Source: a bacterium
Lineage (GTDB): Bacteria; CAIWAD01
Length of the DNA: 64,000 nucleotides
Assembly (NCBI GenBank): GCA_030429345.1
Contig: JAUIFJ010000010.1
Span: 62,001 to 126,000 of the forward strand
Reading direction: 5' to 3'
Shown here one piece after another: positions 10,270 to 63,784 of the stretch (its first letter is position 1; the number at the start of each line of letters is the position of its first letter). The notes beneath the pieces are model-generated. The model did not search any database. It was not told the DNA's origin and saw nothing but the letters and a program-made list of their open reading frames with translations. Position numbers and translations under genes: made by a program.

Positions 10270-11544
10270 TCAGGCCTCCCTTGCCAGTCGAATGCCTGCG
10301 CACTGCCAGCGATCGGCGGGGTAGAAGAAGTTGCGGTAGCTCGGCCGCAGCTGGGCCGGGGGGCTGTAGCACGATCCACCGCGAAGGACCCACTGGTTGC
10401 ACATGAACTTGCCGTTGTACTCGCCGATCACGCCTTCGGGAACCCGGTATCCGGGGTAGGGCCGGTAGGCGCTGGCCGTCCACTGCCAGCAGCTGTCGTA
10501 GAACTGCCGCGGCCCCTGCCCGCCGTCTGCCCCGGGGTGCAGGTCGCAGGCGGGAAGAGTGGGGCGGCCGCCGTAGAGGGCGGCGGCGTGTTCCCACTCG
10601 GCCTCGGTCGGCAGGCGCGCCCCGGCGAAGCGGGCATAGGCATCGGCCTCGTAGGCGCTGAGGTGTGATACAGGAGCGGCGGGATCCCGTTCCCGCAGGC
10701 CGAAGAGCGTGTACTCCAGGGCCTTGCCCTCACGGTCGATCCAGTAGAGCGGCCGCTCGCGGCGGTTTCCGCTGATTTCTGCCCAGCCGTCCGACAACCA
10801 GAACTCGGGGCGCTCGTAGCCGCCCTCGTCCACGAAAGCCTGGTAGTCGGCGTTTGTGACCAGTCCTTCGGCAAGCTGGAAAGGGCGCAGCAGGACCGCG
10901 TGCCGCGGGCATTCGTTGTCGAAGGCGAAGTTCCCGGCCTGCATCGCTTCACCTGTTGCGCCGATTTCCACCTGGCCGCCGTCCTGGTCGAGCCAGCCTT
11001 CCCTGGCCGCGGAGGTCCCCGGAGCGAGCGCGGGGGCTTCGGCAATGGCGGGAAACAACGGATTGTGGAAGAGGCTGTACTTCAGGTCCGTCAGCAGCAG
11101 TTCCTGGTGCTGCATTTCGTGTTCCAGGCCCAGCCGGCAGCGGCGCAGGATCTCCCCGCCGGAAGCATGATCCGTCCTGTCAAGCAGCGCCGCCATGCCC
11201 TCATCGACGGCCTTGCGGTAGCGCAGGACCTCTTGCAGGCCCGGGCGCGACAGCAGCCCCCGCCGCTCGCGGGCGAAGGGGGTGCCGATGCCGTTGTAGT
11301 ACGAATTGAAGAGCTGCTCGTAGGCCGCGCAGGGCGGGGTCCACGACGGATCAAAGGGTTTCAGCAGGAAGGTCTCGAAGAACCAGCTGGTGTGCGCCAG
11401 GTGCCATTTCGGCGGACTGGTGAAGACTTCCGCCTGCAGCGAATGGTCCTCGACTTCCAGGCCGGCGCAGCGCCGCAGGCTTTCCTCGCGCACCCGGCCA
11501 TAGCGCACGGGCCATTCCAGCGAGTCGAGAGTGTCTGGATCCAT
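10270..11544 (-). CDS. egtB: Ergothioneine sulfoxide synthase EgtB
   Basis: The 424-residue protein combines an N-terminal DinB-like domain with a C-terminal formylglycine-generating-enzyme-like domain. The three-His iron site is visible: WHLAHTSWFFE (His51) and EHEMQHQELL (His142, His146), the HX3HXE pattern of EgtB. The C-terminal domain has WEHAA, WQWTASAY and LRGGSCYSP. The enzyme joins hercynine to gamma-glutamylcysteine or cysteine using O2. Which thiol is used depends on active-site residues I cannot assign safely. The start at 11544 (MDPDTLDSLEW) was preferred to an upstream in-frame start because the latter adds residues unlike EgtB. Low-molecular-weight thiol chemistry suggests exposure to oxygen. 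Confidence 0.95.
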   Translation of the reverse strand: MDPDTLDSLEWPVRYGRVREESLRRCAGLEVEDHSLQAEVFTSPPKWHLAHTSWFFETFLLKPFDPSWTPPCAAYEQLFNSYYNGIGTPFARERRGLLSRPGLQEVLRYRKAVDEGMAALLDRTDHASGGEILRRCRLGLEHEMQHQELLLTDLKYSLFHNPLFPAIAEAPALAPGTSAAREGWLDQDGGQVEIGATGEAMQAGNFAFDNECPRHAVLLRPFQLAEGLVTNADYQAFVDEGGYERPEFWLSDGWAEISGNRRERPLYWIDREGKALEYTLFGLRERDPAAPVSHLSAYEADAYARFAGARLPTEAEWEHAAALYGGRPTLPACDLHPGADGGQGPRQFYDSCWQWTASAYRPYPGYRVPEGVIGEYNGKFMCNQWVLRGGSCYSPPAQLRPSYRNFFYPADRWQCAGIRLAREA

Positions 11545-11773
11545 GGGGCAGTCCCTTGTTTCGGCCGGGGCCAGGTCGCAGATCGCCGAAGAAGGCTTGC
11601 GACGTGCATAACAGTATGTAATACAAAAGCCGGTGCCGGCGTCATTCAATTCTTGCATTCAAGGCAGGAAATCAAAAGCCTTTTCCTGCGTCCCGCAATA
11701 CGGAAAAGGTTCTCTGCCAGTCCCAATGGGGCGACTCCAGGAGTCGCCGCAGGTGCAAACCCGCGGAACGGGA
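11545..11773. repeat. Intergenic gap with perfect hairpin between lptG and egtB
   Basis: This 229 bp gap between two minus-strand genes holds a perfect inverted repeat, GGCGACTCC (11730-11738) and GGAGTCGCC (11740-11748), and a weaker one, GCAGGAAA (11664-11671) with TTTTCCTGC (11681-11689). Neither has a clear T run on the minus strand. An AT-richer stretch around 11606-11632 is where an egtB promoter would be expected, but no convincing -35/-10 pair is seen. Confidence 0.5.
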
Positions 11774-12850
11774 TCAGGTATCCAGCCCCCGGTAGAGCGG
11801 CACGGTCAACAGCAGGAAGGCGATGTTGGGCAGCCAGCCGGCGAGCCAGGGATCGATCAGCCCGTTGTAGCCGAAGTTGCGGGCGAAGACCTGGCTGCCG
11901 TAATACAGGAAGCAGCAGAGCAGGCTGATGCCGAAGCCGGCGCCGACACCGCTCAGGCTGCGCCTCATGGCGATGGGCACTCCGAAGAGCACGATCACCA
12001 GGTTGGCGAAGGGCGTCGCCATCTTGACCATGCGGTCGACCTTCCAGCGTATCACGGGCGCGCCCGCCTGTTCCTGGCGGTCGATGAAGGACTGCAGGTC
12101 CTTCAGGTCCATCTCTTCCGGCTTGGCGCGCAGGTTGCGGATGTCGTCCGGATCCAGGTGCAGGCGCGGCAGGGCCAGGCTGTCGAAGGCCTGCCACTGG
12201 TTCCCGCTCCCCATGAGTCGTTCCACGCCCTGGTGGAAACTCCAGCCCGCGCCCTCATGGAAGCGCACCGCGTCCGCGTCCAGGCGCCGGCTGAGGCGCT
12301 GGTTCTCGAACTCGAGCCAGACCGCGCGGTTGCCTTCCCGCTTTTCCAGGTTGAAGTTCTCGAGCGCGAAAATGCTTTCCGAGTCGTTGCGGAAATAGAT
12401 CCGTCCGCTGTTCTGCAGAATGGTCGGAGGGCGCTTCTTGATGCGCGTCTGGTAGATCTCCTGCCGTTCGCGCGCCGTGTCCGGCACGATGGTCTCGCCG
12501 AGCCAGAGAATGCCCAGGCTGACCAGCAGGCCGGCAAAGGCCAGTTCCCGCAGGATGCGCAGGGGATTGACACCGCTGGCCTTGAGCGCCGTGATCTCGA
12601 AGGTGCGCACCAGTCCGCCCAGCGTGAAGGCCGTCGTCAGCAGCAGGGCCACCGGGGACATCAGGTAGACGATGTGCGGCGTATACAGCAGGTAGTAGCG
12701 CAGGATCTCGCCCTTGGGCGTGTTCGTGTCGATGAACTTGTCCAGGTGATCCATCAGGTCGACGGTGATGAAGACCATGATCGCCGAGGCCATGGTCACG
12801 AGGGCGATCGTGGCGAAGCGCTTGAGAATGTATCTCGTGATGATGCTCAC
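11774..12850 (-). CDS. lptG: LPS export permease LptG (YjgP/YjgQ family)
   Basis: The 358-residue protein has the LptF/LptG topology: three N-terminal membrane helices (about residues 10-120, including MSPVALLLTTAFTLGGL and the conserved EITALKASG), a periplasmic beta-jellyroll region, and three C-terminal helices (about 270-355). It would form the inner-membrane half of the LptB2FG transporter that extracts LPS. It overlaps the upstream lptF-like gene by 4 bp (ATGA), showing coupled translation. Assigning G rather than F rests on its position as second gene, on the shorter length and on sequence feel, so the two names could be swapped. lptB, lptC and lptA are not in the window. Confidence 0.85.
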   Translation of the reverse strand: MSIITRYILKRFATIALVTMASAIMVFITVDLMDHLDKFIDTNTPKGEILRYYLLYTPHIVYLMSPVALLLTTAFTLGGLVRTFEITALKASGVNPLRILRELAFAGLLVSLGILWLGETIVPDTARERQEIYQTRIKKRPPTILQNSGRIYFRNDSESIFALENFNLEKREGNRAVWLEFENQRLSRRLDADAVRFHEGAGWSFHQGVERLMGSGNQWQAFDSLALPRLHLDPDDIRNLRAKPEEMDLKDLQSFIDRQEQAGAPVIRWKVDRMVKMATPFANLVIVLFGVPIAMRRSLSGVGAGFGISLLCCFLYYGSQVFARNFGYNGLIDPWLAGWLPNIAFLLLTVPLYRGLDT

Positions 12851-49488: not shown

Positions 49489-51936
49489 ATGTTGGTCTCG
49501 TATCGATTGCTGGGGTGGATCCTGGGATTCCTGGGGTCCACCCCCTTTTTGCTTGCGGAACAACTCTATGTCCCGCAAGAATATCCAACCATCCAGGCTG
49601 CCCTGGATGCAACAGGCAGTGCGGATACAGTCTGGGTCAGCCCGGGCACCTACCAAGAACACCTGCTCATTCCCAGCCACGGTGTGACACTGCTTTCCAA
49701 TTATGTCGTCAGTTCGGATTCCAGCGACTGGCTGGGCACCGTGCTGGATGGTACGCACACTGGCACGGTACTGACTCTTCCTGACTGTTTTGGGAATCTG
49801 GTGCGCCTGCAGGGCTTTGTCATTGCCAACGGCTACGGCGCTGGAGAAACATCCGGTGGAATTCACTCATTCGATTCCGCTTCACTGGATTTAGAAGACA
49901 TCCTTTTTCAAGGGAATTTTACAGAGAACCAAGGGGCTTGCATGTATGTCAGACATGTTCACCCTGAAATTAGACTTAAAAACATCCTCGTCAGAAACCA
50001 ATCAACTTGTAGAGAAAGGAATATTCATATTTCGATTACAGGCAATATCTACGCAGACTCACTTCAGTTTGATGGAACAGACGATCAAGGAGCAGCAGGA
50101 ATAATTGATGCGACAGATAGTTTGTTTGTCTCCAATGTGCTCTTCCACAACTATAATACCAGCAGTAGCGCGAGGCTAAGCCTCGGTGGTCGGGAGTACA
50201 CGAAGATTGACAATGTTGAGATTACAAACAGCACTGGGCGAATTGCCACAATCTGCAGTCTGGGTGGCGGATACTCATACATTCGAAATGTCCACTTTCA
50301 TGACAACACCGTGCTTGCGCTGGATCCAAGTGGCGGCAACGTTGGACTACACTTCGACGGGAACCAGGTGTTCGCGGATAGCATCGTTGTAGAAGACTCC
50401 TATTCTGAATCGTGGCAATTGCTTTTCATAGAGCCGATGCGCGATGACCTGAATCTGTTCGATACCGGAAACGTCTCCAACCTGATTGTGCGCAACAATA
50501 TCGTGGGGGATACCCTCCTGCATGATGGGGATGGTTTCCATGGGCAAGTGGCCCGCATTCAGGACTGCAACCTTCGCAACAGCATCTTCACCGGAAACGT
50601 CAGTCAACTGCCAGTCTGGCCCCATGAGCACTTGTACTCCATTCGTGGGGGCGTCCTGTACATGACGCATGGCGGACTCGATACGCTGTACATGGAGAAT
50701 GTGGAAATCAGCCACAACATCCTGCATGATCCGGATGATTACGATGCTGTATCCTTCCAGGATCTGGAGCTGATTCTCGGCAACTGGGGCCGGGCACTGT
50801 ACCTGGAGTTGGGTACTTCCTTCGCCGTCTTCATGCGCGATTGCGTGTTCCATGAGAACCGGGAACCGAATCCTACACCCGAGACGGACTGGTATTGGAG
50901 CTTGGGGTCAACCTTGCACATCTTTTCGAATGGCTGGGGCCCGGGAGTAACGGAGACCCATATCGAGAATTGTTCATTCACGGATAACGACAATGGGGGA
51001 TTGGCGGCATGGTGGGCAAGTCACACAATCATTCGCAATTCGAATTTTACGAACAACAGGCGATACGGGCTTTGGTTAAATGGATACTATGCTGATGTCA
51101 GAAATACGCAAATTTCCGGAACAGTATCAGAATACTATGCACTGTCAACACGTCCCTCAAGGCAATGTGCGATTACAATCCATACGAATGATCCAGTGCC
51201 TCCGGTGCTGGACAATCTCACCATTACCGACAATGAATGCATCAACCTCTTTGCAACAACTCTAGCCGATCAACCAACCTCAACCATTCGAAACAGCTTG
51301 ATTGCACATAACAGCTATCAGCATTTGACAGCATTTTGGAATAACCCGGACCTGGACCAACCCACCAGCTTTGAATACTGCATCCTGCCCGAGCAACCAG
51401 ATGTCGGCGAGAACAACTTGATCGGGATCGATCCTCTTTTTGATGAGGAGCTGGGCGCGCCCTGGCTCTCCCCGGCTTCGCCGGCCATCGATGCCGGGGA
51501 TAGTGCTGCGGAATACAATGATCTGGAAGATCCCGCCGACCCCGGCTTTGCCCTCTGGCCCAGCCAGGGCGGCCTGCGCAACGACATCGGCTACACGGGC
51601 GGCCCTTATGCCGGGACTCTGGATCACCTGGTCCGCGTGACACCCAGCCCGGAGGACCGTGGACTCCTGCCGGCCACACTGCAGTTGCTTCCGAACTATC
51701 CGAATCCCTTCAACAGCCAGACCCGCCTGGAGTACGTCCTGCCGACAACAGGGTATGTGGCCATTCGCCTGTATGACATCCGGGGGCGGATGGTGAAGGA
51801 GCTGTTCCAGGGCAGCCAGGCAGTCGGCCTGCATCAGATGCTGCTGCGGGGGGACGGCCTGGCCAGCGGGGTATACTTCGTGCGGGTGGAGGCGGGAGGA
51901 GAGTCCGAGGTGCGGAAGGTGTTGCTGTTGAAGTGA
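49489..51936 (+). CDS. Secreted right-handed beta-helix protein with sorting domain (copy 1)
   Basis: The 815-residue protein has a signal peptide (MLVSYRLLGWILGFLGSTPFLLA). The beta-helix entry motif follows (YPTIQAALDATGSADTVWVS, then PGTYQEHLL), and after it many parallel beta-helix rungs with N-x-F-x-x-N turns (residues about 60-650). A T9SS-like C-terminal domain closes the protein (LLPNYPNPFNSQTRLEYVLP, then LASGVYFVRVEAG and RKVLLLK). Such proteins are usually exported polysaccharide-binding or -cleaving proteins or adhesins; I see no lyase catalytic signature. It has a strong promoter upstream. Base composition in the middle is visibly lower in GC than in the rest of the window. The paralogue follows 84 bp downstream. 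Confidence 0.85.
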   Translation: MLVSYRLLGWILGFLGSTPFLLAEQLYVPQEYPTIQAALDATGSADTVWVSPGTYQEHLLIPSHGVTLLSNYVVSSDSSDWLGTVLDGTHTGTVLTLPDCFGNLVRLQGFVIANGYGAGETSGGIHSFDSASLDLEDILFQGNFTENQGACMYVRHVHPEIRLKNILVRNQSTCRERNIHISITGNIYADSLQFDGTDDQGAAGIIDATDSLFVSNVLFHNYNTSSSARLSLGGREYTKIDNVEITNSTGRIATICSLGGGYSYIRNVHFHDNTVLALDPSGGNVGLHFDGNQVFADSIVVEDSYSESWQLLFIEPMRDDLNLFDTGNVSNLIVRNNIVGDTLLHDGDGFHGQVARIQDCNLRNSIFTGNVSQLPVWPHEHLYSIRGGVLYMTHGGLDTLYMENVEISHNILHDPDDYDAVSFQDLELILGNWGRALYLELGTSFAVFMRDCVFHENREPNPTPETDWYWSLGSTLHIFSNGWGPGVTETHIENCSFTDNDNGGLAAWWASHTIIRNSNFTNNRRYGLWLNGYYADVRNTQISGTVSEYYALSTRPSRQCAITIHTNDPVPPVLDNLTITDNECINLFATTLADQPTSTIRNSLIAHNSYQHLTAFWNNPDLDQPTSFEYCILPEQPDVGENNLIGIDPLFDEELGAPWLSPASPAIDAGDSAAEYNDLEDPADPGFALWPSQGGLRNDIGYTGGPYAGTLDHLVRVTPSPEDRGLLPATLQLLPNYPNPFNSQTRLEYVLPTTGYVAIRLYDIRGRMVKELFQGSQAVGLHQMLLRGDGLASGVYFVRVEAGGESEVRKVLLLK

Positions 51937-52020: not shown

Positions 52021-54462
52021 ATGCGTGTCCTGCTTCTCATCCTGCTTGTCCTGCCCTCCGCCTGGGGGGAGATTCGGCATGTGCCTGAGGACTACGGGAC
52101 GATCCAGGAGGCCCTGGATGCCACGGATCCGGCGGATACAGTCTGGGTCAGCCCGGGCACCTATCATGAGCACCTTCTAGGTCCGACACATGGTTTCACT
52201 CTAATGTCGAACTATCCATTCTCTGGGGACAGTCTTGATATTTACAATACCATCCTCGATGGTTCTGAAACTGGAACATGCCTTAAGCTACGGAGTACCA
52301 ATTACAGCTGGGCTCGTTTACAGGGATTAACCGTTCAAAACGGTTATGGGACCGACCTTCCCGGCGGTTTGTTTTGTAATGACAGTACGCGAGTGGAGAT
52401 ATCACACGTACGAATTCTGAACCATCAATCCACGGGCCCCCCATACGATAATGCTGAGGCATCCTGTATCCGGATTCGGGTGCCTGTAATCGAAGCAGTG
52501 CTAAAGGATGTCGTGATCAGGAATCAAAGTGGTGATATAAGATCCGATATCACAGTTGATGTGGTTGAGAAACTGCAAGTTGATGGACTAGTGTTTGCTG
52601 GAAGTGATAGCACTTGGTACGGAAGTAGATTGCTTAGCATTGACTCACTTTTTGTTAGTGACCTGTCAGTGCAAAATTTCCAGCGAGTTTCTCAATCACT
52701 TCGCCTAGCAGGGTACCAGTATGTTCGATTAGATGATGTAGCTGTCTCCAATTGCAATGCTGATGGAGAGCCTATGATTGCGGTAGGGGGCGGAGTTGCA
52801 GAGCTTAACAGATTCAGCCTTACGGATTGTAATCATGTGGATAATGGTCAACACACGAATGCAACGATAGCCCTCATAAGCGTAGATCATCTAAAAGCAG
52901 ACTCACTTGTGATCCAAAGCAATACTGTGCTTGAAGACGACATCATCGAGTTTAGAGTCTCTGAAGAGGGTGCACAGAATTCACCCGGAAGCTCAATTCG
53001 ACGACTGCATCTGATAGGCAATGCAGCAGGACCGAATCCAACAAATCTCGATTCTCCATCGCCGCGAATAGCGTCCATACAGCGCTGCAGCCTATACGAC
53101 AGTTTCATCATAGGGAACCGTGTCCAACTTCCTGACTTCAGTGAGCAAGGCCTAGGAGTCTCCCTTCGTAGGGGTGCCGGCATGTACATCCATCACGATG
53201 TTCAAGATTCTCTTGTGCTATCTAACGTTGAATTCAGTAACAATGAAATATTGGATCCGGACGATCACTACAGTCTTATTCAGTCCCACGGTGCAGACCA
53301 GGTTCTGGGCAGTTTAGGAGGCGCACTCTACCTGAGTCTACATCACACTGGGAGTACTATTATTCGTGACTGTGTATTCGATCATAACAGAATAGAGAAT
53401 GTGGTTCCGGAAACGGACTTCTACTGGAGCATGGGAGCTACCGTATATATCTGGCAAGGATATCCTGGCGGAGTGGATAACACTATCATAGAGAACTGCA
53501 CCTTCACAAGAAATGATGAAGGCGGACTGATGGTTGCGGGAGAAGGTAACATTACTATACGTCAGTGCACCCTCAAAAATAACTTTCGGTATGGTCTTAC
53601 TCTGACTGGTCACAGATTCGATATGCAGAACGTGATGATTGATGGCGTCATTGCGCACGATTTTTTGCTGCAAGGATTCCCTAGTCGGCAATGTGCAATC
53701 AGCTTGGCTCAGCTTGATGCCGTTCCAAGCATATTCAGAAATGTAACCATCAGTGGCTGTGATGTCAGAAATCTCTTTTCTGGTACGTTCCCCGCTGTTG
53801 CTGAAACACAGTTTCAAAGTTTCCTGGTAACAGGGAACACCTACGATCACTTGCAAACACATTGGAATAACCCTGAGTATGATCAGGCCATCCGCTTTGA
53901 CTATTCGGTACTTCCAGAAGTGCCACAGGTTGGTGCGGATAACATCATCACAGAAGAGAACCAGTTTCATTTGGAACTAGGTGCACCCTGGTTGTCGGAA
54001 TCTTCGATTTGTATTGATAATGGTTCTGCAGATGTTGCATGGAATGACCCTGAAGATCCCGACAACCCCGGCTTTGCCCGCTGGCCCAGCCAGGGCGACC
54101 TGCGCAACGACATCGGCTACACGGGCGGCCCTTATGCCGGGACTCTGGATCACATCGTCCGCGTAGCGCCTCGCCCGGAGGACCGTGGACTCCTGCCGGC
54201 CAGACTGCAGTTGCTTCCGAACTACCCGAATCCCTTCAACAGCCAGACCCGTCTGGAATATGACCTGCCGACCACAGGGCCTGTATCCATTCGTCTGTAT
54301 GACATCCAGGGGCGAATGGTGAAGGAGCTGTTCCAGGGCAGTCAGGCGGTCGGCCGGCATCAAATGCTGCTGCGGGGGGACGGCCTGGCCAGCGGGGTAT
54401 ACTTCGTGCGGGTGGAGGCGGGAGGAGAGTCCGAGGTGCGGAAGGTGTTGCTGTTGAAGTGA
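52021..54462 (+). CDS. Secreted right-handed beta-helix protein with sorting domain (copy 2)
   Basis: The 813-residue protein is a paralogue of copy 1: signal peptide (MRVLLLILLVLPSAWG), YGTIQEALDATDPADTVWVS, a long beta-helix, and a C-terminal domain almost identical to copy 1. DNA identity is very high in the first ~150 bp (a 32 bp exact match at 52132-52163 and 49621-49652) and in the last 411 bp (54052-54462 and 51526-51936, no indels). The middle is diverged and AT-richer than any other gene in the window. This pattern suggests recombination or fast change of the surface-exposed part. Function is unknown. It is probably co-transcribed with copy 1. Confidence 0.85.
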   Translation: MRVLLLILLVLPSAWGEIRHVPEDYGTIQEALDATDPADTVWVSPGTYHEHLLGPTHGFTLMSNYPFSGDSLDIYNTILDGSETGTCLKLRSTNYSWARLQGLTVQNGYGTDLPGGLFCNDSTRVEISHVRILNHQSTGPPYDNAEASCIRIRVPVIEAVLKDVVIRNQSGDIRSDITVDVVEKLQVDGLVFAGSDSTWYGSRLLSIDSLFVSDLSVQNFQRVSQSLRLAGYQYVRLDDVAVSNCNADGEPMIAVGGGVAELNRFSLTDCNHVDNGQHTNATIALISVDHLKADSLVIQSNTVLEDDIIEFRVSEEGAQNSPGSSIRRLHLIGNAAGPNPTNLDSPSPRIASIQRCSLYDSFIIGNRVQLPDFSEQGLGVSLRRGAGMYIHHDVQDSLVLSNVEFSNNEILDPDDHYSLIQSHGADQVLGSLGGALYLSLHHTGSTIIRDCVFDHNRIENVVPETDFYWSMGATVYIWQGYPGGVDNTIIENCTFTRNDEGGLMVAGEGNITIRQCTLKNNFRYGLTLTGHRFDMQNVMIDGVIAHDFLLQGFPSRQCAISLAQLDAVPSIFRNVTISGCDVRNLFSGTFPAVAETQFQSFLVTGNTYDHLQTHWNNPEYDQAIRFDYSVLPEVPQVGADNIITEENQFHLELGAPWLSESSICIDNGSADVAWNDPEDPDNPGFARWPSQGDLRNDIGYTGGPYAGTLDHIVRVAPRPEDRGLLPARLQLLPNYPNPFNSQTRLEYDLPTTGPVSIRLYDIQGRMVKELFQGSQAVGRHQMLLRGDGLASGVYFVRVEAGGESEVRKVLLLK

Positions 54463-54645: not shown

Positions 54646-54905
54646 GGCTGAAGTCTAAGTCTGAAGAAATGATCGTGTAGACTTTGCTTTCTCTGTGTTC
54701 TCATTCTTCTTTGTGCTCTCTGTGCGAGTTCTTCCCGGAGGCAAGCTCTGCCTAGCCCGGTCATTCCTGCCGCCTTCCGTAGCTCTTGGCTTCTTGAGTT
54801 CTGAAGTTTCAAGCTCATGAAATTCAGGTACTTGAAACTGAAGCCCATCTTGGCATCCCGCTTGCGTTTCCCGCCGTGTCATTTCTTCGAAACGGGAACG
54901 GGATC
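54646..54905. other. Intergenic gap before the glycan operon
   Basis: No gene is seen. An inverted repeat AGTTTCAAG (54805-54813) and CTTGAAACT (54831-54839) could form a 9 bp hairpin. The stretch around 54690-54730 (CTCTGTGTTCTCATTC, then CTCTGTGCGAG) looks like a worn copy of the dispersed element at 375-481. No strong promoter for the downstream operon was recognised. Confidence 0.5.
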
Positions 54906-55280
54906 ATGCGAAAGAAGAACCGGATCAAGGGCAAGAAGGCTTTGTTCGTGCTGGGCCTCGGCCTGGGCTACCAGGTCAGCGCCCTGCGCGATCGCAAGGA
55001 CGAGTCGGCGAAGATCTATGCCATCGAACGCTACGAGGATGTCTTCGAGCGCGCCCGGCAGGCCCAGCAATGGGACGAGGGCGTCGGCGAGGATGTGGAG
55101 TTCCTGATCGGCAGGGACATGGACTCGGTGATGGCCCACCTGGACCAGGTCACGCGGAAGATGGAAGACGAGGACTGGGACGTGATCACGAACCAGCCCT
55201 CGATCCGCCTGGACCCCAAGTACTACAAGACCATGCTGCGCGCCTGGCGCAAGCGCAAGGCCCTGGTGTCCGAGGACTAG
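54906..55280 (+). CDS. Small MptE-like (DUF115-type) protein
   Basis: The 124-residue protein has a Rossmann-type opening KALFVLGLGLGYQVSALRDR, then KIYAIERYEDVFERA and VEFLIGRDMDSVM. This matches the start of the MptE-like/DUF115 domain found in motility-accessory-factor glycosyltransferases. It stops after about 120 residues, where family members continue for hundreds. It may be a truncated relic or a small accessory subunit. ATG 54906 has only a weak upstream site; an in-frame GTG lies at 54876. It is the first gene of the glycan run, and another MptE-like protein starts at 63784. Confidence 0.6.
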   Translation: MRKKNRIKGKKALFVLGLGLGYQVSALRDRKDESAKIYAIERYEDVFERARQAQQWDEGVGEDVEFLIGRDMDSVMAHLDQVTRKMEDEDWDVITNQPSIRLDPKYYKTMLRAWRKRKALVSED

Positions 55281-55284
55281 ACGC

Positions 55285-56118
55285 GTGACACCCCGCATCC
55301 ACCGGAAGCCTCGTGTGCTGGCCCACCTGGGCCTGAATCACGACGGCTCGCTAGCCCGGGCCCTGGCCCTGGTCGAGGAGGCGGCCGCCAGCGGTGTTGC
55401 CGGCGTAGCGCTTCCCCTCTATTTCCATGCACCCGTCTCCGGGGACGAGGATCCATCCTGCCCCGTGGCGATGGTGGACGCGGAGGACCGGGACCTGGCT
55501 GCCTGCGAGCTGCAGGCAGCAGCCATCGAGCACATCCTGGACAAGGCGCGCCGGCTGGGCCTGGTGACGGTTCTGGAACTTTGTGATCCCCTGTCCCTCA
55601 TGCTGGCCTCCGGCATGGATGTGCATGCCTACTGCCTGCACCTGGGGCGGCCCGGCATGATCGATCATGTGCCGGAGCTGCTGGAACACGGACGCCGACT
55701 CTTCCTGCTGACGCCCCTGGCCGATACGCTCGAGCTCGCCGCCCTGCGCGAGAGGATCCCGGAGAATCGCATGCAGCAGGTGACCCTTGTCTGCGGCGCG
55801 CTGCGCCCGCAGGAGCCCTCCGCGGACTGCCTGGAGCTGACGCGCCGCTTCTTCGGGAATGTCGGTTTCTGTGATACGGACCCCGCATCGGGAACGGCCC
55901 GCCGTGCCGCCGCAGCCGGAGCGGACTGGATCCTGAGCTACATCACACTGGATCGCGCCTCCCGCGGACCGGGACACTACTGGGCCCGCGACCGCGAAGG
56001 TCTGCGCCGGCTGTGCTCCTCGCTGGGGCACCGGCAGCGCGCACTTCCCGGGTCCCGCAACCGATCTCTCGGTTCGGGATTCCGCGACTCCCTAGGAAAT
56101 CATCCTCATGCATCCTGA
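55285..56118 (+). CDS. NeuB-like protein lacking catalytic residues
   Basis: The 277-residue protein aligns with the TIM-barrel of N-acetylneuraminate/pseudaminate synthases: AHLGLNHDGSLARALALVEE for AEIGxNHxG, ASGVAGVALPL for AGADAVKFQ, GFCDTDPASGTARRAAAAGA for GYSDHTxG, and ADWILSYITLDR for IEKHFTLDR, ending GPGHYW. The Lys of KFQ and both metal-binding His (SDHT, EKHFT) are missing, and there is no C-terminal antifreeze-like domain. It should therefore be unable to condense PEP with a sugar. GTG 55285 follows GAGGA; the end overlaps the next gene by 11 bp. It is best called a NeuB-family pseudoenzyme of unknown role. Confidence 0.65.
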   Translation: MTPRIHRKPRVLAHLGLNHDGSLARALALVEEAAASGVAGVALPLYFHAPVSGDEDPSCPVAMVDAEDRDLAACELQAAAIEHILDKARRLGLVTVLELCDPLSLMLASGMDVHAYCLHLGRPGMIDHVPELLEHGRRLFLLTPLADTLELAALRERIPENRMQQVTLVCGALRPQEPSADCLELTRRFFGNVGFCDTDPASGTARRAAAAGADWILSYITLDRASRGPGHYWARDREGLRRLCSSLGHRQRALPGSRNRSLGSGFRDSLGNHPHAS

Positions 56119-57142
56119 TACAGCCCTGATGACCGACCTGCTCGGGGACATCGAGCGGGGCCTCGGTTCCACCCGAGTCAAGCGACTGGAGGAGCTGGTC
56201 GCGCTTTACCTTGGACCCGGTGCCCATTGCGCGGCCCTGAGCAACCCTGCGCCGGCCCTGCAGCTGGCTCTGGGGGCCCTGGGACTGCGCCCGGGGGAAC
56301 GGGTCCTCCTGCCGGCCCTGATCGAGCCGCAGCTGGTTCATCCCGTGTTGCACCTGGGAGCCGAACCGGTCTTCCTGGACGTGCACCCTCACAGCCTGTG
56401 TCCGGATCCCGGGCGCATGCGCGACTGGATCGAGAGCCGCGCCCTGAGACACAGCGGATCCTGGTTCGAGCGCGAAAGCGGACACCGGCTGGCGGCCTTC
56501 GTTTTCGCCAACCGCGACGGGCTTCCCGCCCCGGTGGAGGAGTATCACGAAATCGCGGGGCGCTATGGGCTGCGCCTGGTGGAGTGCTGTGCTGCCGCGG
56601 AAGGAGCGGGCTCCGGTCCATTGCCTGACATACGCCTCGTCGACCTGCGCTCCGCGCCCTTCGGACTGGATTCCGGAGCCCTGTTGATCAGCCAGGACGC
56701 GGACCTTCGCCGCAGCGCGGTCCACTGGGCGGAACTCTGTGCGACAAACAGCGATGCCGGGCATGACGGCTTCGGTTTCCAGTACCGCCTGTCGGCCCTG
56801 CTCGCGGGTCTGGCGGCGGAGCGCTTCGAACGCTGGCAGGCAAGCACCCGCACACGGGAGGAAAAGCCGTCCAGGCGGCCGCGCAAGCTCTGGCGCCTGC
56901 CGGGCGGCGAGAATGTGCGCCAGTTCAGCGCCCACCTCTTCGAGCACGGCTGGACTCCGCTTTCCCTGCCTCCCTGCCTGCCGGACCAGGAACTGTACTC
57001 CGGGTTTGCCGGCGAAGCGACCCCCGAAGCCAGCCAGGCGGCGCAGCACTGCCTGCTGGCAGAACGTCGTACGGATGCGCTGACGGCGCCGCTGCTGCAT
57101 GCGACACCCGGAATCCCTGCAACGAAAGGCGCACACGCATGA
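56108..57142 (+). CDS. DegT/DnrJ-like aminotransferase homologue lacking the PLP lysine
   Basis: The 344-residue protein keeps the sugar-aminotransferase scaffold: CAALSNPAPALQLALGALGL, then RPGERVLLPALIEPQLVHPV, GAEPVFLDVHPHSL and GFQYRLSALLAGLAAERFER, matching the usual GxNYRM helix. The PLP-binding Lys region, normally SFxxxKxLxxGEGG, reads APFGLDSGALLI with no Lys, and the pyridine-binding Asp (xEDAA) is replaced in VECCAAAEGA. It is therefore predicted to be inactive as a transaminase. It overlaps the NeuB-like gene by 11 bp and the next glycosyltransferase by 4 bp. Together the pair looks like relics or repurposed parts of nonulosonic-acid synthesis. Confidence 0.7.
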   Translation: MHPDTALMTDLLGDIERGLGSTRVKRLEELVALYLGPGAHCAALSNPAPALQLALGALGLRPGERVLLPALIEPQLVHPVLHLGAEPVFLDVHPHSLCPDPGRMRDWIESRALRHSGSWFERESGHRLAAFVFANRDGLPAPVEEYHEIAGRYGLRLVECCAAAEGAGSGPLPDIRLVDLRSAPFGLDSGALLISQDADLRRSAVHWAELCATNSDAGHDGFGFQYRLSALLAGLAAERFERWQASTRTREEKPSRRPRKLWRLPGGENVRQFSAHLFEHGWTPLSLPPCLPDQELYSGFAGEATPEASQAAQHCLLAERRTDALTAPLLHATPGIPATKGAHA

Positions 57143-60100
57143 ACTTCCTGATCGCCGGCATCAAGAACTGGCCCATGCATCACGCCTGGGAGCATGCCAT
57201 CGCCGAGGCGCTGCAGGCCGCCGGACACCGTGTCACCTTCCTGGGATGCGCGCCGGGCGCCTTCAACAGCTGTGAATGCGTGGACCGCAACACCGTATCC
57301 GCTCACGGGGACCATGCCGCCTTCTGCGCGGGCTGCGTCCAGCAGCAGCAGGGAGTGCATGCCCGGGCCGGATTCGCCGAAAGGTCCCTGGCGGCCGACG
57401 AAGAAAGCGAAACCCGCCTGAGGCAGGACGTGCTCGGGCGCTCGATCGGCGAGCTGCTCGCCGAGGACTTCGAGGGACAGCCGGTGGAGAAGCTGCTGCT
57501 GCCCTCGCTGCGCCGCTGGGGCAAGAGCGGCGAGTCCCTGGACAGCTTCGTGCCGCCGCGCGTGCTGCAGGAGCATCTGCTGACCGTGCACCGTATACGC
57601 CGGCAGCTCCCGGACCTGCTCGAGAACGAGGCCATCGACACGGTCATCGTGCTCAACGGGCTCTTCGCGGCCGAGCAGGCGATCAGCCTGGTCGCCGCCC
57701 GCCATGGCTGCCGCGTGATCAACTACGAGCGCGGCCACGTGCGGAACACACTGATGCTTTCCGACGGCGGCCCCTCCTGCCACCTTGAACTCGGCAGCCG
57801 GCTGCCCCGGGACCTGGACGCCGAGCTGGATCCGGTCTCCGCCGGCCTGCTGGACCGCTACCTGGACGGCCGGCACGACAACCAGGACAGCAATGTGCGC
57901 TTCGGAACCGACGGGGCGGGCCTGGAAGGGACCAGGACACGCGTCTGCGCCTTCGCCAACGTCAGCTGGGACTCGAGCATCTGTTCGCGCTCCACCGTGT
58001 TCGGCGAGTACCGCGAGTGGCTGCGCGCCCTGCTGTCCCTGGCCCGCAACAATCCGGACCTGGAAGTCGTGATCCGCGTGCATCCCGGCGAGGCAAGCCT
58101 CAGGACGGATCCCACCATCGACCGGACCGGGCGCTGGATCCGTGCGCAGCAGCCGCCGGAGAACCTGGTGCTCGTGGACGCCGAGGATCCGCTCAGCTCC
58201 CGCCAGCTGGCCAACCAGTCGGACCTGGTAGTGGTCTTCTGCACCACCTTCGGTCTCGAGCTGGCCTGCCAGGGGCGCACCGTGTTGACCTGCGGCGAAG
58301 TGCACTACGCCGGTCACGGCTTCACGGTCGACCTGGAAAGCGCGGAGTGCTTCGAGCAGACTGTGAGACAGAGGATCGCCGAACCGCTCGAGGCGGAAAC
58401 CGTCAGGCGCCGTGCGCGCTCCTATGCCTATGCCCTGTTCTTCGAGGCGCCGCTGCCCTTTCCCTGGGTCGAGGAGGTGGAGTACGGCGTGCCGCAGCGC
58501 CTGGCGCCGGCGATCACGACCGAGTGGCTGGGAAGCGACGAGCTCCTGCGCGGACTGCTGTCCTGGTTCTGCGGGGAACGGGCCCTGCCGCCTTCCCTGC
58601 GCGACCTGCTCGACCGTCCGGAAGCCTGCCCCCTGCCCTGGTGCTACAACTCGAGGCTGGAGCGCCCGAAAGGCGCCCTGGCCGTCCTGATTCCGGCTTT
58701 CGAGCGCCCCGATTCCCTGCGCAAGGTCCTGGAGGGCTATGCCGCCCAGGACTGCGGCAGCCGCTCCTTCCGTGTTCTCGTCGTCGATGACGGCAGTTCT
58801 TCGCCCCTGGAGGACTCCTTTTGCGACCTGGAATCCCGGCTGGACCTGGAATGGCTCCGCCTGCCGCACAACAGTGGACCGGCAAGAGCGCGTAACACGG
58901 GGATCGAGCACCTGCTCCGGGCGGGCAGCGGCATCGGGCAGATCTTCATCACGGGCGCGGACATGATACCGGCGCAGGACCTGGTCGCGGGGCTGCAGAA
59001 GGCCCGTCGCGGCTGGGGCGATCCACGCGTCGCGCTGCTGGCGCACGTGGACTGGGCCGAAGGGCTGCCGGTCAACCGGGTGATGGACCTGGTGACACGC
59101 AACGGCATGCAGTTCGGCTTCTCGGGCCTGCCGGCCCGCGCGATCCTTCCACCGCAGTACCTGTACACAAGCGGAGTGGCCCTGGATGCCGGCTTCCTGC
59201 GCAGCAGCGGCCTGCGTTTCAGGGAAGACTTTCCCTACGCCGCCTGGGAAGACACCGAATTCAGCCTGCGCGCCTGGAAGGCGGGGCTGGTGCTGGCCTA
59301 CGACCGCGATCTGCGTGTGTACCACGATCATCCGATGACCCTGGATTCCTTCTGCGAGCGCCAGGTTCGAGCAGGCGCGGCAGCCAGGGTCTTCGAGCGT
59401 CTCGAGCCGCAGGCCTATCGCAGTGTGGCCGGCCAGCCGCCGGAGAATCCCCCCGATCGGCGGCAGATGCACGCCCTGCGGGAAGCGGCCCGGGAACTGG
59501 ACAAGCTCGACACGGAGCGCTTGCGCGGGGTGCAGGGGCCGAGGGGAGACCTGGGCGAAAGCCTGGATCGCGAGCAGAACGACCTGCTCGCGCAGCTCTT
59601 CCGTCTGCATCACGAAGCCGGCTGGTTCTCCGAGCCGCAGATCGCGCCTGGGGAAGGAGTCGAGGGCCTGCTGAGCATCCTGATCCCGGTCAGGGACCGC
59701 TGGGCCCTGACGCGGGACTGCCTGGAGGCCATTCGACGGAACACGAAGGGTCCCTGGGAAGTGATCGTCGTCGACAACGGCTCCTCGGACGAGACGGCCG
59801 CGAAGCTTGCCGGCATGGAGGACGTGCTGGTCCTGCGCAGCGAAAGCAACCTGGGCTTCGCCCGGGCCAACAACCTGGCGGCGGGACACGCCCGCGGCGA
59901 GCTGTTGGTGCTGCTCAACAACGACACGATCGTGCAGGAGGGCTGGGACGAACCGCTGCGCCGGGAGCTGGCTGATCGTGTGACAGGAATCGTGGGCCTG
60001 CGCCTGGTCTACCCGGACGGCACGATCCAGCATGCCGGCGTGGCCTTCGGCGAGAACGGCCTGCCCTGGCACATCTATCGCGGACTTCCCGGAATGGCGG

Positions 60101-60702
60101 ACCCCGTGATGCATCGCCGCGAGCTTTCCGCGGTGACCGGCGCCTGTCTCGGAATCCGCCGGGATCTCTACGCGGCCATGAAGGGCCTCGACGAGAATTT
60201 TGTCAATTGCTACGAGGACATCGACCTCTGCCTGCGCGTCCGCGCCGCCGGATTCCGGGTCGTCTACAATCCGGAAGGAAGCGTGATCCACCTGGAAGGA
60301 AAGACCGCGGGACGCAACGACCGGGTGGCGCACAGTTGGCGCGTGCTGCTGGATCGCTGGGAAGGGCGCTTGCCCAGGGACCAGGAGCGTCTGCTGGCCG
60401 AGGACGGCCTCGAGCTGGAAAGCAGCGAGCAGGGCGTGCGCTACCGCCGCATGCCAAGGCTGAGCGCCGAGCAGGAGATCGACCGCCTGCTGAAGCAGGG
60501 AGAGCGCGACAAGGCGCGAAAGGTCCTGCGTTTCCGGGTCAATCAGCATCCGGATGATCTCGGCGCCCGCCTGAGGCTGCTGGACCTGGAACTGGATGCC
60601 GGAAACCTGTCGGCCGCCCAGGCGCTTAGCCGCGGATTCACCCTGGACGAGAAGAGGCGCGAGCGGATGGCGGTTCTTGCGGCCGGCGGGGAAGACGCGT
60701 GA
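57139..60702 (+). CDS. Three-module glycosyltransferase
   Basis: The 1187-residue protein has three parts. Residues 1-510 look like a capsule-type GT-B transferase (INYERGHVRNTLML, then RVHPGEAS and VVVFCTTFGLELACQGRTVL) with a Cys-rich patch early on (CEC and CAGC). Residues about 513-780 are a GT2 domain (AVLIPAFERPDSL, VLVVDDGSS, AWEDTEFSLRAW). Residues about 844-1090 are a second GT2 domain (SILIPVRDRWALT, VIVVDNGSSDET, NNDTIVQEGW, CYEDIDLCLRVRAAG). A helical, TPR-like tail follows. It could add several sugars to one acceptor. The start overlaps the previous gene by 4 bp. Confidence 0.85.
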   Translation: MNFLIAGIKNWPMHHAWEHAIAEALQAAGHRVTFLGCAPGAFNSCECVDRNTVSAHGDHAAFCAGCVQQQQGVHARAGFAERSLAADEESETRLRQDVLGRSIGELLAEDFEGQPVEKLLLPSLRRWGKSGESLDSFVPPRVLQEHLLTVHRIRRQLPDLLENEAIDTVIVLNGLFAAEQAISLVAARHGCRVINYERGHVRNTLMLSDGGPSCHLELGSRLPRDLDAELDPVSAGLLDRYLDGRHDNQDSNVRFGTDGAGLEGTRTRVCAFANVSWDSSICSRSTVFGEYREWLRALLSLARNNPDLEVVIRVHPGEASLRTDPTIDRTGRWIRAQQPPENLVLVDAEDPLSSRQLANQSDLVVVFCTTFGLELACQGRTVLTCGEVHYAGHGFTVDLESAECFEQTVRQRIAEPLEAETVRRRARSYAYALFFEAPLPFPWVEEVEYGVPQRLAPAITTEWLGSDELLRGLLSWFCGERALPPSLRDLLDRPEACPLPWCYNSRLERPKGALAVLIPAFERPDSLRKVLEGYAAQDCGSRSFRVLVVDDGSSSPLEDSFCDLESRLDLEWLRLPHNSGPARARNTGIEHLLRAGSGIGQIFITGADMIPAQDLVAGLQKARRGWGDPRVALLAHVDWAEGLPVNRVMDLVTRNGMQFGFSGLPARAILPPQYLYTSGVALDAGFLRSSGLRFREDFPYAAWEDTEFSLRAWKAGLVLAYDRDLRVYHDHPMTLDSFCERQVRAGAAARVFERLEPQAYRSVAGQPPENPPDRRQMHALREAARELDKLDTERLRGVQGPRGDLGESLDREQNDLLAQLFRLHHEAGWFSEPQIAPGEGVEGLLSILIPVRDRWALTRDCLEAIRRNTKGPWEVIVVDNGSSDETAAKLAGMEDVLVLRSESNLGFARANNLAAGHARGELLVLLNNDTIVQEGWDEPLRRELADRVTGIVGLRLVYPDGTIQHAGVAFGENGLPWHIYRGLPGMADPVMHRRELSAVTGACLGIRRDLYAAMKGLDENFVNCYEDIDLCLRVRAAGFRVVYNPEGSVIHLEGKTAGRNDRVAHSWRVLLDRWEGRLPRDQERLLAEDGLELESSEQGVRYRRMPRLSAEQEIDRLLKQGERDKARKVLRFRVNQHPDDLGARLRLLDLELDAGNLSAAQALSRGFTLDEKRRERMAVLAAGGEDA

Positions 60703-61985
60703 TGCGCTGCACCGTGATCCAGCTGGCCCGCGTGGGCGATCTGGCGCAGAGTGTCCCCCTGCTGCGCGCTCTGAAGAGCTCCGGCAGGCGTGTGACTCTC
60801 ATCTGCCCGGCGGACCCGGGAACATGGATTCGCCACTGGGCCGATGAGTTGCGCGTGGTCGATCTGCAGGGAATCAGCGGGCTCGCCGGAGACCCGGTGG
60901 GACTGATGCGGGAACTGCACAAGTCCCTGGGTGATCTGCTTTCCTCAGAAGTCGATGAGCTCTACTGCCTCAACGAAGCCGCTCCGGCATTGGGCCTGCG
61001 AGCCCTTCTGCCGGCAAGGCGCTGCTGGGGATTCGGTGACGAGACCCACCCCGCCGTCGCCTGGATGCGCGAACTCACGACACGTCGGGTCGAAAACCGC
61101 ATCCACCTGAGCGAGTGGCAACTGGCGCTGCGGCCGGATCTGGAGGCGGAAGTCTCCGCTGCTCGCACGCGCGCGCAAGGACCTCTTGTGATTCATGCCG
61201 GGTCCGGGCACCCCGCGCGACGCCTGGAAGGGGAGTTCTGGAAAGCCCTCCTGAAGGAGCTGGGAACACGGATGCCCGGAACGAGAATCCTGCTGAGCGG
61301 CAGCGGGAGCGAAGCCTCCTTCTGCGAAGCGCTGGCCGCCGGGCAAGCCCACGTGGAATCGCTGGCCGGCCGGACCTCGCTGGATGATCTCCTGGGGCTG
61401 ATCGGGGAGGCGCGCCTGTTGCTGGCGCAGGACACGGGAGTGCTGCACCTGGCGGCGCTGACGGATACCCCGCTGCTGGGACTGTATCACGCCAGCGCGC
61501 GGGCCTTCGAGACCGGGCCCTTCCAGCATGGCGCACGCGTGCTCGAGATCGTGGCCGATTGCCACCCCTGTGTCGAAGGGCTTCCCCCCTGCGGAGACTT
61601 CACCTGCCGTGCCAGCCTCGATCCGGCGCGTGTCGCGGCGGAGGCCGCCGCCCTGGCCGTCGGGGATCCGCCTCCGCCCGCGGACGAAAGCCTGCTGCGC
61701 GGGTATACGGTCGACTTCGGCGAGGAACTCTATCTCCTGCAGCCCGCGGAAGGGCTGGACCAGGACCGGATCGAGGAGAAGCGGCGTCAGCTGGCCCAGG
61801 TCCGCGGCGAGCTGCCCTTCAAGCTGCCCGGAGTATCACGCGCAGCCCTCGAGGATCTGCGGACACGCGGACTTGGCTTCGTCGACCTGCAGCGGCGATT
61901 CGGTCTGCCGGAAGCCGGGAGCCTGTCCCTGGGAGCCCGCTACCGCGAAGCGGCGGCCTGCCTGTCGAGCGGGGAAAGCCGATGA
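60702..61985 (+). CDS. GT9-family (heptosyltransferase-like) glycosyltransferase
   Basis: The 427-residue protein begins MRCTVIQLARVGDLAQSVPL, the GT9 entry motif, and has VIHAGSGHPARRLEGEFW, LLSGSGSEASFCEAL, LAGRTSLDDLLGLIGEARLL and AQDTGVLHLAALTDTPLLGLY, typical of ADP-heptose-LPS heptosyltransferases. A further ~120-residue C-terminal region has no clear match. It may transfer a heptose or related sugar to the surface glycan. ATG 60702 shares its A with the upstream stop. The end overlaps the next start by 4 bp. Confidence 0.85.
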   Translation: MRCTVIQLARVGDLAQSVPLLRALKSSGRRVTLICPADPGTWIRHWADELRVVDLQGISGLAGDPVGLMRELHKSLGDLLSSEVDELYCLNEAAPALGLRALLPARRCWGFGDETHPAVAWMRELTTRRVENRIHLSEWQLALRPDLEAEVSAARTRAQGPLVIHAGSGHPARRLEGEFWKALLKELGTRMPGTRILLSGSGSEASFCEALAAGQAHVESLAGRTSLDDLLGLIGEARLLLAQDTGVLHLAALTDTPLLGLYHASARAFETGPFQHGARVLEIVADCHPCVEGLPPCGDFTCRASLDPARVAAEAAALAVGDPPPPADESLLRGYTVDFGEELYLLQPAEGLDQDRIEEKRRQLAQVRGELPFKLPGVSRAALEDLRTRGLGFVDLQRRFGLPEAGSLSLGARYREAAACLSSGESR

Positions 61986-63784
61986 AGATCCTCCTGCTGG
62001 ACATCCCTCTCTTCCGCGAAGAGCTCCGTCAGCTGGGGCACGAGGTCTGCAGCCTGGGACCGGATCCGGCCTGTGATACGGTGATCCCGCCTGGCCAATG
62101 GACCCTGGAGAGCATTCGCGCCTCACGCCCGGCAGGATTCGAGCCGGACATTGTGCTCCAGAGCGAGAGCCTGAAACAAAGGCACTTTCCGCTGGAGCTG
62201 GCGCGCCTGCCCTGGCCCAGCGTGTGGTATTCGATCGACGGACACCTGCACCTGGACTGGCACCTGCAGATGGGCCGCCTGGTGGACCGCGTGCTCTGCA
62301 GCCAGCTCGACGTCTGCCGCGCGTTCCGGGGGCGGGGCCTGCGCGCGGACTGGCTTCCCTGGAGCGTCAACGCGCCGGCAGAGCTCCCCGCAGGGCGGGA
62401 TCTGCCCCTCGCCATGGTCGGCAGTTTCCACCCGGGGCATCGTCCGCGGCGCATGCAGCTGCTCGAGAAGTTGAAGCGACGTTTCCCCCTGGAGCTTTTC
62501 GGCCCTCCGTATACGCCATTCCTTTCGGCGCCTGAGCAGGAGGAGATCTATGGACGCTCGCGAATCGTCTTCAACGAGTCGATCGGGGGCGAGATCAACT
62601 TCCGCCTGCTGGAGGCGGCGGCCTGCGGCGCCTGTGTTCTCAGCGACGAGGCGGACAACGGGCAGGACATGCTGCTGGCTCCCGGTAGCGAGTACATCCC
62701 CTGGACCACGGCAAGCCTGGAAGAACGGGTCGAGGAACTGCTCGAGGATCCGGAACGCTGTCTGGAAGTGGGGCACAGGGCCCGAAAGCGCGTTCTCGCC
62801 GAGCACGGCCGCCTGTCCCGGGCCCGCCAGCTCGTGCAGCTTGTCCAGGGCACGGACATCCGCCCCGGGCGGGTCGAAGTGGATCACGGTCCGGTCGAAG
62901 ATGGTGTGAGACGCAGGCTGCAGGCCAACGGCCTGGGGCCGGGAGAGTTCGGCGGATCACGGCAGGTTCCAGATTGTCGTTCGGAGGAGGACCTGCTGCC
63001 CTGCCTGGAATGGCTGCGCGCCGGTGGCGAGGCATCACGCCTGCAGGGAGCGCACCCGGTGCTCGACCTGGCAATCCATGCCGATCGACTGCTGCAGGAC
63101 TTGAAGGCCCGTGCCCTGGGTGTCGACGAGGCCAAGGCCGCGGCATTCCTGCTCTGCGAAGCCTTCGTCTCGGCAGGCCGCAGGCGCACCCCCGGCATGT
63201 GGAACGGCCCCTCGGGAGAGCTTCGTTACCCGGCCTGGGAGCTGCAGCTGATCGAAGCCATGGCCCACGTCATGCCGGGGGATCCGGACTTGATTGTGGC
63301 ACATGCCCGCTGCCTGGTGCAGAGCGGCCAGCCGGAGGCGGCCCTCGATTCCCTGACGCTGCTGCTGAAGCACATTCTTTCCAGGGAGCAGAGAGTGTCC
63401 GCAGCCTTTCTCCACGAAGTCGCGGGTCTCCAGGAACAGTGCGGTTTTCGCGAGCAGGCCCTGCTGACCCTGCTGGCGCTTCCGCCGGAGGAACTGCTGC
63501 AACGGGCCACGAGTCCCCTGGCGAAGAGGGCACTCCTGCTGGCCGGAAGCACCTGGGAGGAACTGGAAGCACTGTGCAGCAGGCAACCGGATTCCGCGGC
63601 GCTCGAGCGGCTCCTGCAACAGGCGCGGACCGACACGCAGCGGCAGCGGGCCGAAGACGCATTGCAGCGCGCCCTGGCTTTCGCGCCGAACTGCTCGCGT
63701 ATACGTCGCCTGGCCGCGCAATGGAAATCGCAACCCGTTCCGGAACGAGTCCGGAGCACGGCAACCGGTGGAAAGGTTCTGTGA
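61982..63784 (+). CDS. CgeB-like glycosyltransferase with helical-repeat tail
   Basis: Residues 1-300 of this 600-residue protein resemble CgeB/YkvP-type GT-B transferases: VWYSIDGHLHLDWHLQ, LCSQLDVCRAFRGRGLRADW, LAMVGSFHPGHRPRRMQLLE, IVFNESIGGEINFRLLEAAA and CGACVLSDEADNGQDML. Residues about 330-600 are all helical with TPR-like spacing (LIVAHARCLVQSGQPEAALD). Such a tail often holds protein partners or acceptors. It overlaps the preceding gene by 4 bp and shares one base with the next start, so the whole cluster is translationally coupled. Confidence 0.82.
   Translation: MKILLLDIPLFREELRQLGHEVCSLGPDPACDTVIPPGQWTLESIRASRPAGFEPDIVLQSESLKQRHFPLELARLPWPSVWYSIDGHLHLDWHLQMGRLVDRVLCSQLDVCRAFRGRGLRADWLPWSVNAPAELPAGRDLPLAMVGSFHPGHRPRRMQLLEKLKRRFPLELFGPPYTPFLSAPEQEEIYGRSRIVFNESIGGEINFRLLEAAACGACVLSDEADNGQDMLLAPGSEYIPWTTASLEERVEELLEDPERCLEVGHRARKRVLAEHGRLSRARQLVQLVQGTDIRPGRVEVDHGPVEDGVRRRLQANGLGPGEFGGSRQVPDCRSEEDLLPCLEWLRAGGEASRLQGAHPVLDLAIHADRLLQDLKARALGVDEAKAAAFLLCEAFVSAGRRRTPGMWNGPSGELRYPAWELQLIEAMAHVMPGDPDLIVAHARCLVQSGQPEAALDSLTLLLKHILSREQRVSAAFLHEVAGLQEQCGFREQALLTLLALPPEELLQRATSPLAKRALLLAGSTWEELEALCSRQPDSAALERLLQQARTDTQRQRAEDALQRALAFAPNCSRIRRLAAQWKSQPVPERVRSTATGGKVL

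Follow-up and report, generated by a model that had tools for sequence, protein, structure and literature searches.

Probable in-place remnants of a legionaminate-type cassette: NeuB-like and LegC-like proteins without active-site residues in a bacterial glycosyltransferase locus

The two proteins described here are related to the NeuB/legionaminate and pseudaminate synthase family (PF03102, TIGR03569, TIGR03586) and to the LegC type of DegT/DnrJ/EryC1/StrS aminotransferases (PF01041, TIGR04181). With the first family the NeuB-like protein shares the TIM-barrel fold, a sequence relation and the locus seen in sister genomes, but it lacks the metal-binding and PEP/sugar-binding residues and the SAF domain. 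With LegC the DegT-like protein shares the fold of the large domain and a grouping with the sister LegCs, but the PLP lysine, aspartate and phosphate-binding turn are missing from it, and its C-terminal part is eroded. DegT relatives of the dehydratase type, in which the lysine is replaced by alanine or histidine, keep PLP binding; the DegT-like protein differs from them in having lost the aspartate too. A dead gene in a legionaminate cluster is described for Aliivibrio salmonicida, in which NeuA is a pseudogene (PMC7371886). The present locus is similar in that part of a legionaminate-type cluster has been lost, but differs in that two enzyme genes remain open and encode proteins whose folds persist without their active sites, the remaining sugar pathway being gone. 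Like pseudoenzymes in general (PMC10211241), the two proteins have the family fold without the conserved catalytic motifs; they differ in being orthologues in place, not paralogues accompanying a living copy, and in coming from one pathway. Among titles and abstract openings, our search found no NeuB or LegC pseudoenzyme, and nothing joining "pseudoenzyme" with "nonulosonic acid" was found in the literature searched.

The DNA analysed (the window, 64,000 nucleotides) belongs to contig C40; the genome measures 4.2 Mb and is 98% complete. The features at issue are as follows.

54906..55280, +: small Maf_N-like ORF (Pfam Maf_flag10_N, 23.1 bits, slightly under the 23.5 cut-off)
55285..56118, +: NeuB-like pseudoenzyme, TIM barrel only (GTG start, 277 aa)
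56035..56115, +: tail of the NeuB-like ORF, its final 27 codons, in which the coding signature is missing
56050..56082, +: strong hairpin within this tail (from folding, z -2.0 for a 96-nt stretch)
56108..57142, +: DegT/LegC-like pseudoenzyme, large PLP-type domain retained, C-terminal part eroded (ATG start, 344 aa)
57139..60702, +: large glycosyltransferase with a Capsule_synth-like N-terminus and two GT2 domains, orthologue of the gene 3' of LegC in the sisters
60702..61985, +: GT9 glycosyltransferase, next in order in the sisters as well
61982..63784, +: CgeB-like glycosyltransferase (Glyco_trans_1_2, from a Pfam scan of 61976-63784)

The initial annotation gave the two central ORFs as intact, overlapping and translationally coupled to glycosyltransferases. 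Their coordinates, reading frames and mutual overlap are correct, and neither contains an internal stop. The NeuB-like and DegT-like ORFs overlap by 11 nt, and the DegT-like ORF overlaps the glycosyltransferase ORF at 57139-60702 by 4 nt, so the overlaps stand, whereas translational coupling itself is something we infer solely from them. Further downstream are several glycosyltransferases, a FliT-like ORF that scores under its cut-off and an MptE-like gene (PF01973, which we take to be the core domain of Maf proteins); flagellins occur in all five genomes of the phylum that were compared. Judging from gene content, this is likely to be a flagellin glycosylation locus.

The Maf_N-like ORF, for which an alternative GTG start at 54876 is possible, marks the left edge of the cassette in the sisters, where an ORF in the equivalent place is 55% identical, and it is also present in a genome from another family (G001). 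At the cassette head, two families of the phylum share a stand-alone protein of 118-134 aa that resembles part of the Maf N-terminal domain (window 54906-55280; L015 8103-8492; L028 3460-3849; L197 2248-2604). The sister record L028 (DYSB01000028.1) bears the title "Acetofilamentum sp.", which NCBI taxonomy lists among the Bacteroidaceae genera; in view of the gene content and GC-rich coding here, this label looks doubtful. Upstream of the cassette, at 49489-51936 and 52021-54462 (both +), two large repeat proteins of secreted appearance (815 and 813 aa) are encoded in tandem; their N-terminal parts diverge, and their C-terminal ~100 residues are nearly identical (PNPFNSQTRLEY... type, sorting-domain-like). 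The hairpin at 56050-56082 (8+6 bp with one bulge) lies 26 nt upstream of the DegT-like start; it is present in a single copy in the genome, which rules it out as a member of a repeat family.

The phylum-level comparison covered the window's own genome and four others (G001 to G004). In the three sister-genus genomes (G002, G003 and G004), the NeuB match sits in a block that shares the window's neighbours, in the order Maf_N, formyltransferase, CMP-NulO synthetase, NeuB, NeuC, CBS/nucleotidyltransferase, LegC, large glycosyltransferase (~1200 aa) and GT9. The sister NeuB and LegC are canonical, NeuC matches TIGR03568 above cut-off, and the combination of CBS and nucleotidyltransferase domains is presumably the make-up of PtmE in the GDP-linked legionaminate route. 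The family scan was done on G003, with G002 and G004 assigned by gene order and identity; the G004 contig ends short of Maf_N, and the GT9 alignment covers G003 only. In G001, Maf_N, formyltransferase, CMP-NulO synthetase and NeuB follow each other as in the sisters, the last being cut by the contig end and carrying canonical motifs. Because the order matches in the sisters and G001, the fuller cassette is most simply ancestral and the state in the window derived.

The window retains Maf_N, the NeuB-like and DegT-like genes, the large glycosyltransferase and GT9 in sister order, and the formyltransferase, CMP-NulO synthetase, NeuC and CBS/nucleotidyltransferase are missing. A working legionaminate-type cassette is therefore not found at this locus, from which NeuC, CBS/nucleotidyltransferase, CMP-NulO synthetase and a working NeuB are all absent. 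Synteny and alignment together indicate that both ORFs are very probably what is left, in place, of a nonulosonate cassette of the legionaminate type, with four genes gone and the catalysis of NeuB and LegC lost; the tail at 56035-56115 is probably the remainder at a deletion junction. The initial observation of adjacent pseudoenzymes in a glycan operon is confirmed and its interpretation is right in part, but it overlooked this origin, visible in the sister genomes.

The NeuB-like ORF matches Pfam NeuB (E=2.5e-07, 30.8 bits vs a cut-off of 22.1), and its top NCBIfam models are NeuB_NnaB/PseI, with scores far under the equivalog cut-offs. When it was aligned with canonical relatives (73 other rows) and positions were mapped by alignment from the window protein to a sister NeuB and on to Neisseria meningitidis NeuB, all 13 mapped active-site positions differed. 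The changes include, in N. meningitidis numbering, E25>H14, K53>A42, Q55>P44, K129>C117, Y186>R174, S213>C196, H215>T198, E234>L217, H236>Y219 and D247>G230. Three of the mapped positions (K53, H236 and D247), with their roles, are ones that we take to belong to the active site. Another of the 13, N184, is Ser in most relatives and hence has no diagnostic value. Ten of the 13 come from the residue list in PMC6795526, which itself names 13 residues, Asn74, Phe288 and Arg314 being outside the mapped set. The metal-binding histidines and the catalytic lysine and glutamate that NeuB requires are not found in the protein, and the ORF stops after the barrel, so that the SAF/antifreeze-like domain with its Arg, present in sister NeuB, is missing. 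The absence of the active lysine, both metal-binding histidines and the antifreeze-like domain, noted initially, is thus borne out.

The same holds for the claimed loss of the PLP lysine and the pyridine aspartate from the DegT-like protein, each of which is present in 78/78 other DegT rows. This ORF matches Pfam DegT_DnrJ_EryC1 (E=1e-22, 81.3 bits vs a cut-off of 19.8), and its top NCBIfam models are of the LegC type, again far under the equivalog cut-offs. In the numbering of sister G003, the lysine is replaced (K198>P184, or A183 in a smaller alignment), as are the aspartate (D169>C160) and other residues (S193>D179, G56-T57>P47-A48, N240>Q225), and the phosphate-binding turn is lost; altogether 8/8 examined positions, a set that we assume to represent the DegT active site, are changed. 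With the catalytic residues gone in both proteins, the earlier statement that they are not biosynthetic enzymes is upheld. Since the active-site columns vary little or not at all within the NeuB and DegT families, chance or a single sequencing slip is not the cause. The viral NeuB rows came from 80 loci, reduced to 69 when 6 loci whose matched frame contained stops, as well as identical sequences, were removed; the viral DegT rows likewise came from 80 loci, reduced to 71 when 1 locus with stops and identical sequences were removed.

Structure prediction and superposition, one of the checks proposed with the initial annotation, showed core folds that match the NeuB/PseI and DegT structures. 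For modelling, each window protein was aligned with two sister rows and with 51 (NeuB) or 48 (DegT) of the viral rows; these alignments are rich in canonical relatives, which biases both models toward the family fold. The NeuB-like model is a complete eight-strand barrel (pLDDT 84) that superimposes on NeuB and PseI structures with Z ~26 and rmsd 2.4-2.5 over 235-238 residues. The DegT-like model retains a well-modelled large domain, most of residues 251-344 being poor, and matches sugar aminotransferases with Z ~28 and rmsd ~3 over ~300 residues. Both proteins thus combine a retained family fold with a lost catalytic motif, as expected of pseudoenzymes.

Identity between the window and the sisters is 55% for Maf_N, 49-50% for the large glycosyltransferase, 38% for GT9, 31.5-31.7% for the DegT-like protein and 27-28% for the NeuB-like protein; among the sisters it is 66-70% for NeuB, 74-76% for DegT and 61-65% for the glycosyltransferase. 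NeuB and DegT are therefore more conserved than the glycosyltransferase among the sisters, whereas these two are the least conserved against the window. Rate ratios are 6.0 for Maf_N, 7.5 for DegT, 13.7 for NeuB and 2.0 for the glycosyltransferase, and because the Maf_N ratio is also high the ratio by itself is a weak sign of special acceleration; absolute distances (Maf_N 1.0, glycosyltransferase 1.7, DegT 3.4, NeuB 10.4) are the better measure. In trees with 28 viral rows each, the DegT-like gene clusters with the sister LegCs (SH-aLRT 98), with which it has an insertion in common that the other DegTs of its own genome lack. The NeuB-like branch (length 4.8) is not placed by the NeuB tree: constraining it with the sisters (p-AU 0.944) or with the NeuB of a second cassette on contig C11 (p-AU 0.87) raised the likelihood in each case. 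As the branch is too long to place, orthology of the NeuB-like gene rests on its position.

Several observations indicate that the pair consists of decommissioned enzymes left in place and not simply decaying. (i) The frames are open, and stop-free ends occurred in at most 4.3% of runs of a neutral simulation that started from the sister genes and was run until all active-site residues had changed (300 runs per setting). (ii) GC3 is 0.78 in both ORFs, matching the adjoining GT9, and GC2 is 0.51-0.52. (iii) In columns at least 90% conserved, active-site residues are retained at 0/10 positions in NeuB and 0/6 in DegT (0/16 together) and other residues at 11/18 and 14/17 (25/35 together; Fisher p 0.0016 for NeuB and 0.0008 for DegT). 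Looser columns (80% and 70%) gave p of 0.0007 and 0.00008 for NeuB and 0.006 and 0.010 for DegT. (iv) The simulation retained a mean of 0.14-0.24 of the other conserved residues, compared with 0.61-0.82 observed, a level reached or exceeded in at most 1% of the 300 runs at each setting. Neutral pseudogene decay in its simple form is rejected because the frames are open, GC3 is preserved and scaffold residues are retained, and the earlier impression that the ORFs are maintained is supported on the same grounds. The erasure of every active-site residue beside retained scaffold residues is the main argument that the fold is still selected, although it cannot separate function from the avoidance of misfolding, and with the dead pair in one genome only, selection on it is gauged indirectly. 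Erosion fits the C-terminal part of the DegT-like protein and the non-coding-like NeuB tail, where GC3 is 0.52 against 0.81 in the core and the coding score is -0.098 per codon against 0.223.

The search of the window's own genome for pathway genes took in NeuC and CBS/nucleotidyltransferase. It found no NeuC above cut-off (best 74.8 bits vs 235.9); a full-length relative of CBS/nucleotidyltransferase was likewise not found (best 74.9 bits; sisters 662-807). The genome does carry a second, canonical NeuB/DegT/CMP-NulO synthetase cassette on C11 (L013 9082-12899, -), which has no NeuC and includes, between the named genes, one (10948-11826) without an NCBIfam match. In the other four genomes the same search turned up the one NeuB of their cassette and no second copy that would correspond to the C11 gene. 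The dead pair is present in one of the five genomes. The NeuB-like protein had no relative in genome_contigs at close-relative sensitivity and none in plasmids, and the two sister records were the only matches to the glycosyltransferase N-terminal alignment; the idea that dead NeuB/DegT pairs form a widespread family thus finds no support here.

A folded, non-catalytic role appears most likely for the pair. The explanation that we favour, by a little more than even confidence, starts from the very probable loss of the four cassette genes before and between the two, along with NeuB and LegC catalysis. On this view both proteins are still expressed and kept stably folded, as statistics and models support, and would serve as non-catalytic folded partners of the co-encoded glycosyltransferases in an apparent flagellin or surface glycosylation locus. 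Sugar supply may have passed to the C11 cassette, which would have released the pair from catalysis. Docking subunits are one candidate form of such partners, to which we give somewhat less than even credence. Unlikely, though far from negligible, is the fuller proposition that, once the pathway was lost, dead NeuB and LegC stayed on as a co-encoded structural pair, docking or regulating the glycosyltransferases of an operon for a flagellin or surface glycan. The roles suggested initially, those of repurposed scaffolds or of binders of sugar nucleotides, are possible.

The pair could instead be functionless leftovers kept open because translation of the coupled glycosyltransferase ORF requires ribosomes to traverse them first, polarity selecting against stops and frameshifts and toxicity against gross misfolding. 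We regard this as a lesser but real possibility: the 11-nt and 4-nt overlaps (with 4-nt overlaps in the intact sister operon too), the steep divergence (27% and 32% identity vs 66-76% among sisters), the eroded ends and the prior deletion of intervening pathway genes all agree with it. Polarity, however, would guard the frame and not the scaffold residues, which are retained far above the neutral simulation, so that misfolding avoidance is required as an extra cause. That either fold was rebuilt for another reaction is improbable; the folds are retained, the pockets are altered at every mapped position and new Cys or His residues occupy old NeuB active-site positions (H14, C100, C117, C196), but no relative sharing these residues was found in the searches above, and cysteine is no more abundant than in relatives, on which ground a cysteine-based rebuild of the barrel pocket was rejected. 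Least probable by far is that both enzymes are still active with migrated catalytic residues, as the match of the overall folds to NeuB/PseI and DegT structures might suggest: no replacement Lys or His lies beside the lost positions, lysine is scarce in both proteins (0.7% and 1.2%), the DegT-like one having none between residues 25 and 252, and the pathway partners are missing.

Pseudoenzymes are usually recognised as paralogues next to a living enzyme. Here the dead copies are orthologues by position, two from one pathway, at the site of a living sister operon, and comparing the sisters with this locus, as the states before and after, lets one ask what preserves a fold once its chemistry is unneeded. 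The locus also carries a warning, as automated annotation could assign it to a nonulosonate pathway that cannot run. If the structural-subunit proposition is correct, two enzymes of one pathway would have become pseudoenzymes together, in place, with the ancestral operon intact in the nearest relatives.
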